Below the pieces are notes generated by a model that was not told the origin of the DNA, did no database searches, and saw only the letters and a program-made list of their open reading frames with translations. A program made the position numbers and the translations under genes. Below are positions 34,267-36,286 of a stretch of 64,000 bases of DNA, piece after piece (position 1 is the stretch's first letter; the number at the start of each line of letters is the position of its first letter). The DNA lies in assembly GCA_019636235.1 (NCBI GenBank), contig JAHBXW010000004.1, positions 186,001 through 250,000 of the forward strand, read 5' to 3'. Origin of the DNA: Planctomyces sp. (GTDB taxonomy: Bacteria; Planctomycetota; Planctomycetia; Planctomycetales; Planctomycetaceae).

Positions 34267-35163
34267 TCAGGCCTCGTCCGGATGGCCGTCATCGGGGCCT
34301 TGAATGGCCCGCCACGCCGCCAGCCCGTCGATGACGGCCCGCACGTCGTGCACCCGGATCAGCTCCGCCCCCTGCTGGGCCACGGCGATCGCCACCCCGA
34401 TCGTGCCCGCCAGGCGTTCTTCGAGCGGTCGGCCCAGCACTTTCTCCAGAAACCGCTTCCGCGAATGGCCGATCAGGATCGGTCGGCCGAGTTCGTGCAG
34501 CGAGCGGAGGTTCCGCAGCAGCTGCAGGTTATGGAGGGCCGTCTTGCCGAAACCGACTCCGGGGTCGAGGACGATCCGTTCCGCGGAAATCCCGGCGGCG
34601 GTCAGAACTTCCAGCCTGCCGCAAAGATAGTCGCGGACCTCGCGGACGACATCCCCGTACGACGGGTTAAGCTGCATCGTTTGCGGCGTTCCCTGCATGT
34701 GCATGGCGATCACGCCGCAGTCGGCCCGGGCACAGACGCGCGGCATTTCGGGATCTGCGGCCAGCCCTGAAATGTCGTTCACAATCCGGGCTCCGGCCCC
34801 GAGCGCTCTCCGCGCGACCTCGCCCTTGGTCGTGTCGATCGAAATCGGGACGCTCGTTCGCCCGGCCAACCGTTCGACGACCGGCAGGATGCGGCGGCAT
34901 TCCTCGTCCATGTCGACGGGCGCCGCCCCCGGCCGCGTTGATTCCCCGCCGATGTCCAGCACGTCCGCCCCGTCGTCGACAAGCCGCAGCGCGTGGTCGA
35001 TCGCGGCGTCCACGGCCAGCCAGCGTCCACCGTCGGAGAAACTGTCGGGCGTGACATTCACGATGCCCATGATCCGCGGTCCACGACGGAAGTCCCAATC
35101 GGCTCCGGGGAAGCGCCATCGGCGGGGTGCGAGCGGCGGAGACGGGTCGGACGCGGGACTCAC
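34267..35163 (-). CDS. folP: dihydropteroate synthase
   Basis: 298 residues. It joins pABA to dihydropterin pyrophosphate in folate synthesis. The first signature MGIVNVTPDSFSDGG (32-46) and the second, LDIGGESTRPGA, are exact, followed by ISIDTTKGEVARRAL, IVNDISGL and DPGVGFGKT. GHSRKRFL near residue 240 completes the pterin/pABA site. The length is normal. It is not next to other fol genes or ftsH. Starting at ATG 35163, the first 30 residues are a less conserved leader. Confidence 0.97.
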   Translation of the reverse strand: MSPASDPSPPLAPRRWRFPGADWDFRRGPRIMGIVNVTPDSFSDGGRWLAVDAAIDHALRLVDDGADVLDIGGESTRPGAAPVDMDEECRRILPVVERLAGRTSVPISIDTTKGEVARRALGAGARIVNDISGLAADPEMPRVCARADCGVIAMHMQGTPQTMQLNPSYGDVVREVRDYLCGRLEVLTAAGISAERIVLDPGVGFGKTALHNLQLLRNLRSLHELGRPILIGHSRKRFLEKVLGRPLEERLAGTIGVAIAVAQQGAELIRVHDVRAVIDGLAAWRAIQGPDDGHPDEA

Positions 35164-35278: not shown

Positions 35279-35307
35279 TTGACAGGCGGAAAACGGTCCT
35301 CTATCAC
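35279..35307 (+). promoter_or_regulatory. sigma-70-type promoter of the Cys-rich protein gene
   Basis: TTGACA (35279-35284), a 17-nt spacer and TATCAC (35302-35307). It lies about 140 nt upstream of the start codon, implying an untranslated leader of roughly 130 nt. The -35 box is a perfect consensus. Confidence 0.65.
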
Positions 35308-35446
35308 TCCCGCTGTTCAGTCGCCATCGACAAGGACCTTTTCCGGCATGTGACGGAGCGATGGCAACCCGGGTTGGCAGTTCTGAGGCTCGGACCAACG
35401 CCTGGGGTGAGGACAAGATCGCCGAGTCTGAGACAGGAGTCACAAC

Positions 35447-35839
35447 ATGATGCGGAAACTGTTTGCGTTGTCCGCCCTGGCGGCTGTGGTGTTCGCGATG
35501 ACGGCCGAGGCGGAAGCTGGTCGTTGCCGTACGCGGCGCAACCGCTGCTGCCGTGCGGCCAACCACTGCTGCCCGGCGCCGACCTGTGCGGCCCCGTGCG
35601 GCCCGAGCTGCGCCGCTCCGTGCGGCGGCAACCACTGCGGCCCGAGCTGCGCCGCTCCCTGCGGCAACGCCTGTGCCGCTTGTGCGCCGGCCGCCAACTG
35701 CTGCGGCGCGACCGCTGCCTGCTGTGCGCCGGTTGGCGCCGCCTGCAGCTCGGCCTGCGGCTCGCCTTGCAGCGACTACTCGGCCACCCCGGAGAATGCT
35801 CCGGAGCCGCCGGCTGAGCCGAACCACACCGCCGCCTGA
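35447..35839 (+). CDS. small secreted cysteine-rich protein with internal repeats
   Basis: 130 residues, starting ATG-ATG at 35447 with AGGAG 7 nt upstream. Residues 1-25 are a signal peptide (MMRKLFALSALAAVVFAMTAEAEA). The mature part holds 21 Cys in about 105 residues, many as CC or CxxxC, including two copies of CGPSCAAPCG. The tail is Cys-free, acidic and Pro-rich (ENAPEPPAEP). It probably forms a disulfide-linked surface or wall structure; planctomycetes are known for Cys-rich cell-envelope proteins. A promoter and a terminator flank it, so it is a single-gene unit. Confidence 0.85.
   Translation: MMRKLFALSALAAVVFAMTAEAEAGRCRTRRNRCCRAANHCCPAPTCAAPCGPSCAAPCGGNHCGPSCAAPCGNACAACAPAANCCGATAACCAPVGAACSSACGSPCSDYSATPENAPEPPAEPNHTAA
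35597..35665 (+). repeat. tandem 30-nt repeat inside the Cys-rich gene
   Basis: Two copies (35597-35626 and 35636-35665) of a 30-nt unit differing at one base, with a 39-nt period. They encode CGPSCAAPCG twice, which suggests growth of the protein by slippage or unequal exchange. Confidence 0.9.
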
Positions 35840-35872
35840 TTTCGGCGCGTTTGGCTGGGCTGCTGATCCTGA

Positions 35873-35905
35873 GAGCCTGTTCTGTTCCGACAGAGCAGGC
35901 TCTTT
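35873..35905 (+). terminator. terminator downstream of the Cys-rich gene
   Basis: Hairpin from GAGCCTG and TCTGT to ACAGA and CAGGCTC with a three- to four-base loop (35873-35902), followed by TTT. The stem is 12 bp apart from one unpaired base on each side. The T-run is short, but placement 33 nt after the stop codon fits. Confidence 0.7.
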
Positions 35906-35920: not shown

Positions 35921-36286
35921 TCAGGCGTCGTCCCGCCGCACCGTCGCGGGCGAAAATGCCGGCAGGCACACCGCGATGTACTCCGCGCCGTCCGGTCCCG
36001 GAGTGCTGTAGCGCACCCATTCGCCCCCCGGTGCGATCACCGCCTGGCCCGCCCGCACCCTCTGCACGCCCGTCCGCGTCTCAATCTGCAACTCGCCCCT
36101 CAGCACCACCGTGTACTCATCGAACGCCGGAGTCTGACCCGGTTCGCTCCAGCCTGACGGACTCTTCATCCTGGCGATGCTGATCGCCTCCGTGGCCGAT
36201 GCCACACGGCCGATGAACTCCTCGATCGACTTGCGCGGCGTCCCGGCCGCTTCGATCCGCACGGGTGACTCGATAATCCTCAGCAT
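35921..36286 (-). CDS. small cupin-fold protein
   Basis: 121 residues of the single-domain cupin type. The strand and turn pattern DEYTVVLRGELQIE and VIAPGGEWVRYSTPG is clear in the central part. The usual metal-binding His residues of motif 1 (HxH) are absent: PAFDEYTVV has Asp/Glu instead, so metal binding is doubtful. Function is unknown. It converges with the Cys-rich gene, and the DUF1080 gene is 249 nt upstream on the same strand. Confidence 0.8.
   Translation of the reverse strand: MLRIIESPVRIEAAGTPRKSIEEFIGRVASATEAISIARMKSPSGWSEPGQTPAFDEYTVVLRGELQIETRTGVQRVRAGQAVIAPGGEWVRYSTPGPDGAEYIAVCLPAFSPATVRRDDA

Follow-up and report, generated by a model that had tools for sequence, protein, structure and literature searches.

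The reading frame at positions 35447-35839 of the window (the whole stretch of DNA that was analysed, 64,000 nt of a Planctomyces sp. contig) probably encodes a small envelope protein of planctomycetes, structural in role and exported through Sec, which would cross-link the protein wall through disulfide bonds. This reading is drawn from comparison of sequences. The protein is one of a group of related small planctomycete proteins rich in Cys, a family that is unnamed in the databases searched. As a candidate partner in the wall whose promoter is conserved and whose spacing rule can be counted, a small Cys-rich protein of this kind would provide a simple handle on that wall. The source genome comprises 5.61 Mb in 45 contigs, and the G+C content of the window is 66-69%. 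The features of the locus are summarized in Table 1.

Table 1. Features of the locus, with positions in the window.
Feature	Position	Strand	Basis or remark
Divergent neighbour, pterin-binding enzyme, probably dihydropteroate synthase (folP)	34267..35163	-	PF00809, E 2.5e-85
-35 hexamer TTGACA	35279..35284	+	Sequence; invariant in 3/5 same-genus copies
-10 hexamer TATCAC, 17-nt spacer	35302..35307	+	Invariant in 3/5 same-genus copies
Putative 5' leader, ~133 nt	35314..35446	+	Start site inferred from -10
Leader block GGCTCGG...CCGAGTC, could close a 7-bp stem	35387..35428	+	Near-invariant in 3 copies
Shine-Dalgarno-like AGGAG, 7 nt before ATG	35435..35439	+	Sequence, by eye
ORF	35447..35839	+	130 aa, 21 Cys
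Signal peptide MMRKLFALSALAAVVFAMTAEAEA, predicted cleavage AEA|GRC	35447..35518	+	Rule-based site
30-nt repeat copy 1 (CGPSCAAPCG)	35597..35626	+	Sequence
30-nt repeat copy 2 (CGPSCAAPCG), 29/30 identical to copy 1	35636..35665	+	Sequence
Acidic Pro-rich C-terminal motif ENAPEPPAE	35792..35818	+	15-row alignment and member tally
Terminator-like hairpin, few T after	35871..35904	+	-24.8 kcal/mol
Convergent neighbour, cupin-like protein	35921..36286	-	PF07883, E 2.3e-5, under Pfam's cut-off

The coding status of 35447-35839 is supported by the conservation of homologues at the protein level. GC content by codon position is 0.61/0.78/0.82, with the third base highest. An earlier, preliminary description of this DNA had proposed a secreted protein with 21 Cys making up about a fifth of the mature chain; the sequence confirms the 21-Cys frame and its signal-like start, and all 21 Cys lie within the 106 residues that follow the rule-based cleavage site (21/106, 20%). 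The 130-aa chain also contains three His. A lipobox, looked for by eye, is absent from the window protein, as the site AEA|GRC has no Cys at +1, and the protein is probably exported. Searches of Pfam, NCBIfam, PHROGs and PDB (by sequence) gave zero matches to it, and AlphaFold2 run on the single sequence returned a model too poor to interpret (pLDDT 53, pTM 0.27). A 29-codon upstream frame at 35361-35450, seen by eye, overlaps the start codon of the ORF (ATGA). This frame was rejected as likely due to chance because it is lost in the sister copies of the same-genus genome G001 (by eye).

The family was delimited with profiles and then by architecture. A six-member profile matches 28 of the 170 genomes of the taxonomic family, and 16 of these 28 were accepted; the 12 rejected genomes gave AGLF-type, YTV, tail-less, low-Cys or unreadable matches. 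In a sample of the phylum, 20 of 294 genomes are matched by a 15-row profile (17 from the same family, two from other parts of the class and one from another part of the phylum). Accepted members occur in 15 of these 20 genomes; G050, G104, G037 and G386 have matches of the AGLF or AGMF type, and the G416 match resembles an unrelated protein that contains Cys, or a chance match. A scan of a named genome collection, from which near genomes may be left out, gave one locus, in a Planctomycetaceae MAG. In a literature search that covered few subscription papers and went by title and start of the abstract, no paper was recognised as dealing with a small YTV-less Cys-rich planctomycete protein. When each member was left out in turn, it scored higher than all 50 copies of itself with shuffled cores in 15/15 cases, one of them by 0.3 bit; every member had gone into the alignment beforehand.

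Twenty-nine members were hand-picked, with start codons chosen by eye and the A-x-A site by rule, without SignalP. All 29 start with a signal-like hydrophobic stretch, often ending in E-A-G, which is followed by a basic stretch, a Cys-rich core and a Pro tail. Core units vary by genus and include CAAPC, CCKPxRVR, CCxPAP and CGYSS. The tail carries A-P-x-P-P in 25/29 members (D/N-A-P-x-P-P in 19/29), and the last 20 residues are Cys-free in 27/29; within the 15-row alignment A118 and P119 are invariant and P121 and P122 nearly so. A DNA pattern for the tail motif has three matches in the two genomes of the genus, all in this family, with one control match. Compared with domain models, the 15 A3 members give only weak single matches.

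The window protein itself contains the near-identical 30-nt CGPSCAAPCG repeats of the preliminary description, in two copies with one mismatch. The copies are not strictly head to tail because they recur at 39 nt or 13 aa, with 9 nt between them. Since the species is represented by one genome only, slippage is put forward as a plausible origin of the repeat.

Cys is spaced in a particular way in the family, and the absence of C-x-C from its Cys-rich cores is a new quantitative point, unlike metallothioneins, in which C-x-C is the metal-thiolate motif. Among the 492 Cys of the 29 cores C-x-C occurs 0 times (~102 expected), C-x-x-C 35 times (~100 expected, about a third) and CC 119 times (103-104 expected, slightly above). 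With one protein per genus from 15 genera and dipeptide-preserving shuffles, C-x-C is found 0 times against 46.2, every shuffle set having at least 34, and C-x-x-C 17 times against 49. All these figures overstate independence because the cores are repetitive. The zero holds in 15/15 genera and is unremarkable alone in three (P 0.19, 0.51, 0.65). As a control, 78 ordinary ORFs at the same loci, selected on length and GC pattern with no use of annotation, and containing no family member, have C-x-C 10 times against 4.9 expected and C-x-x-C 15 times against 5.0. Eight YTV proteins show four C-x-C against 44 expected and mildly low C-x-x-C (31 against 43), and eight AGLF-type proteins (L090 outside the eight) show three C-x-C against 49 expected.

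These counts bear directly on the possibility that the window protein is an exported metallothionein-like metal binder, buffering ions such as Cu or Zn outside the cytoplasm, which we consider improbable. Such a protein would fit a chain with 20% Cys and three His, the His-rich stretches in some relatives (G110, G093, G143:C85) and a weak match to an HHHH-motif model in 1/15 relatives (E 0.0067). The family is, however, not built like a metal-thiolate protein, because C-x-C is absent from all 492 core Cys, with C-x-x-C at about a third of expectation, whereas the source genome's own metallothionein has two C-x-C. That separate protein (PF02069; L103, G000:C6:115532-115657) is likewise small and Cys-rich, a 71-aa frame with eight Cys, and by eye has no signal peptide. 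Neither PF02069 nor any other Pfam model matches the window protein, and the flanking genes are folP-like and cupin-like. Cytoplasmic metal-binding homologues without a signal peptide, which the preliminary description had named as evidence against its reading, did not appear among the relatives, as 29/29 have a signal-like start and 0 C-x-C. Metallothionein as the main reading was set aside on Cys spacing, the signal-like start and the separate metallothionein in the genome, and wall cross-linking is more likely than metal binding for the window protein. PF02069 itself is matched in only 2/170 genomes of the taxonomic family.

Two other accounts can be weighed against a role in the wall. The protein could be a disulfide-cross-linked component of an extracellular matrix, holdfast, fimbria or surface appendage, outside the wall itself. 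A signal-like start, a low-complexity repeat core and a Pro-rich tail would all suit such a component, and the four paralogues of G001 would fit surface variation. This account is unlikely, as the Cys-spacing habit is common to the family and the YTV wall proteins and neither flanking gene is an appendage gene. The poor AlphaFold2 model and the lack of a known domain would also be expected of a low-complexity ORF without specific function, kept by chance. A signal-like start and an A-P-x-P-P tail recur across genera, however, the promoter and leader are conserved, and the position beside folP is kept in the sister species, so that a chance ORF is very improbable.

The promoter claimed in the preliminary description largely stands: both hexamers are invariant in three of five same-genus copies, but a consensus scan skipped the promoter because that scan requires T as the last -10 base. 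The distance from the end of the -10 hexamer to ATG is 139 nt in the window and 138 and 140 nt in two G001 copies. Within 300 nt before the start, TTGACA is found in 21 of the 29 hand-picked members (shuffles: mean 2.0, maximum 8), one of which (G159) has the hexamer at -6, where it is no promoter; it is missing in 8/29, including the same-genus copies G001c and G001d. At about 130-215 nt before the start (~ -215 to -131) it occurs in 19/29 members (shuffles: mean 0.6, maximum 4) and spans 9/15 genera. Where a -10-like hexamer is present after TTGACA, it lies ~105-190 nt before the start. The case for a promoter rests on the whole set because single matches do not always beat shuffles (e.g. 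G175, G176); the recurrence of upstream TTGACA among the 29 members supports a putative promoter of the gene's own with a long leader.

Within this leader, three copies from the window's genus share the block GGCTCGGACC...CCGAGTC almost unchanged, and its first 29 bases, with up to three mismatches allowed, match only those three copies in two genomes. The fold energy of the block is not better than that of shuffles, the window leader as a whole also folds no better than shuffles, and its only two matches in Rfam are both far below gathering scores. Three species of another genus (g5; L017, L023, L087) retain a different leader block before the gene, GCGTGACCGGCAATGTTTGCC...TCACGC, which could form a three-way junction, with weak fold-energy support. 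RNA structure in these leaders would be a lead only, because fold energy favours it not at all in the window's genus and weakly in g5, and any function of the leaders is likewise conjectural.

The strong hairpin of the preliminary description is present as a stem of -24.8 kcal/mol, and its region after the ORF has a z of -3.0, with 2/200 shuffles as good. As a terminator it is less typical: a terminator scan skipped it, and the four T in its tail leave it outside the 13 of 29 members whose hairpins have at least five T in the tail (3.4% of shuffles). Hairpins of -14 kcal/mol or better follow the gene in 27/29 members, a count without control in which the G001b hairpin coincides with the promoter region of the following gene; a controlled, coarser test gives 16/29 members against 14.7% of shuffles. 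The window gene probably forms a transcription unit by itself, with a promoter of its own, a long leader and a terminator. High expression, which the preliminary description read from the promoter and hairpin, is a prediction. In G001 a tandem pair of orthologues lies beside folP, whose folP-like protein is 64% identical to that of the window, and two further family genes lie elsewhere, giving four paralogous genes in total.

How planctomycetes keep their shape is disputed, with a protein wall, peptidoglycan or both under discussion, and the wall proteins in the surveyed literature are mainly YTV proteins. One paper calls the planctomycete wall a protein sacculus with disulfide bonds (PMC2754498), and a purely protein wall is disputed because peptidoglycan is also reported in Planctomycetes (PMC4432640). 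In a wall preparation the highest scores went to two Cys-rich YTV proteins (PMC8567305), and a further study counts a YTV protein among the essential genes (PMC10632474). YTV wall proteins (PF07639) are present in the source genome with 445, 465 and 529 aa; the 130-aa window protein thus differs from them in size, as had been pointed out. Membership of the window protein in the YTV group was rejected, with PF07639 matching neither it nor the 15 A3 members. Like the window family, YTV proteins have a signal-like start, are Cys-rich, occur in Planctomycetes and avoid C-x-C; the window protein differs in lacking YTV repeats and in its tail and promoter.

YTV proteins are found in 54/294 genomes of the phylum sample and in 19 of the 20 genomes with a family match, the 20th being G416; with accepted members only, the overlap is 15/15, and it is confounded because both groups are nearly limited to one class. 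Conversely, the sample includes 32 genomes of the family that bear YTV, of which 15 have no match and 17 no accepted one, partly because a low-complexity profile has little sensitivity. In G050, the YTV protein joins a family-like Cys-rich N-terminal stretch to YTV-type repeats (0/200 shuffles as good against the family profile), and the YTV N-terminus of G043 is matched by 3/200 shuffles with the full profile and 1/200 without the signal part. The N-termini of the source genome's own YTV1, YTV2 and YTV3 are not clearly distinct from shuffles against the full family profile (48, 11 and 10 of 200 as good), and for G001 YTV2 the figure is 117/200; without the signal part, own YTV1, YTV2 and YTV3 and G001 YTV2 give 172, 16, 135 and 10 of 200. 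The C-terminus of one own YTV protein consists of TCAAPVDPGCAAPCDGC followed by two further residues, a vocabulary common to the family. Co-regulation with YTV genes is unsupported, as six of them (three own, three of G001) have no shared promoter; TTGACA lies at -90 in one own gene and at -260 in one G001 gene, with no good -10. An enzyme family that forms disulfides, VKOR, occurs in 2/2 genomes of the genus, and DsbA (PF01323) in 0/2.

Small and large Cys-rich envelope proteins also occur together in chlamydiae, where OmcA (9 kDa) and Srp (15 kDa) are found beside OmcB (60 kDa). OmcA is a lipoprotein, unlike the window protein, which by eye has no lipobox and has no Pfam match. The title of a work on the lipoprotein EnvA, cited in PMC2811131, agrees with this status of OmcA. 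In the same source, Chlamydiae are described as a lineage with an unusual wall in which a small Cys-rich envelope protein stands beside a large one (PMC2811131). Chlamydiae may serve as a working analogy for such pairs.

Hair keratin-associated proteins use short Cys-Pro repeats as disulfide cross-linkers. The relative in G103 has comparable CCxP runs; the keratin-associated proteins are eukaryotic and unrelated, and the likeness is an analogy only. Another kind of small protein rich in Cys, likewise unnamed and with a signal-like start, was also seen (L049, L039, L094, L034, L005, L084, L090), with a mature start of AGLF, AGMF or similar and CAAP or CCAPEP repeats. Its AGLF-type proteins (L049, L039, L094, L034, L005) resemble the family in CAAP-type repeats, signal-like start and avoidance of C-x-C, and differ in the mature start, an often greater length and, by eye, the lack of an A-P-x-P-P tail.

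In the proposed cross-linking role, the signal peptide would be removed, and the basic N-terminus and low-complexity Cys-rich core would be oxidised outside the cytoplasm. A Cys spacing that avoids C-x-C entirely and C-x-x-C mostly may lead to disulfides largely between chains, which would tie copies of the protein to one another and to the large, Cys-rich YTV proteins in the wall of the same cell. The conserved A-P-x-P-P tail, in which acidic residues are usual and Cys is usually absent, may dock or space the protein, and the core would evolve through gain and loss of short repeat units. Export, an own transcription unit, a probably structural role and distinctness from YTV proteins, all advanced in the preliminary description, fit the relatives. 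A broader and more tentative suggestion, which we would regard as possible rather than probable, is that planctomycete wall proteins share a Cys-spacing code, with C-x-C forbidden and C-x-x-C rare in the small ones; it might block metal chelation or tight local loops and favour inter-chain bonds, and the family, alongside the large YTV proteins, might supply the small and rapidly evolving cross-linker of a disulfide wall that resembles keratin but is bacterial. Cross-linkers might also be told from metal binders by a sequence test for the lack of C-x-C.

Individual loci show further variation. The upstream tandem copy in G001 (L014, G001:C1:635102-635410) ends early, at 86 aa and without the Pro tail, shortly before the promoter of the next copy, around which TGACAGCGGGGGTG and CACTCCCGCTGTCA form an inverted repeat. 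In genus g42 (L078, L083, L085, L089, L091) the core is of the CCKPxRVR type and strongly basic, with a net charge of +19 to +27, and by eye its number of units seems to vary between species.
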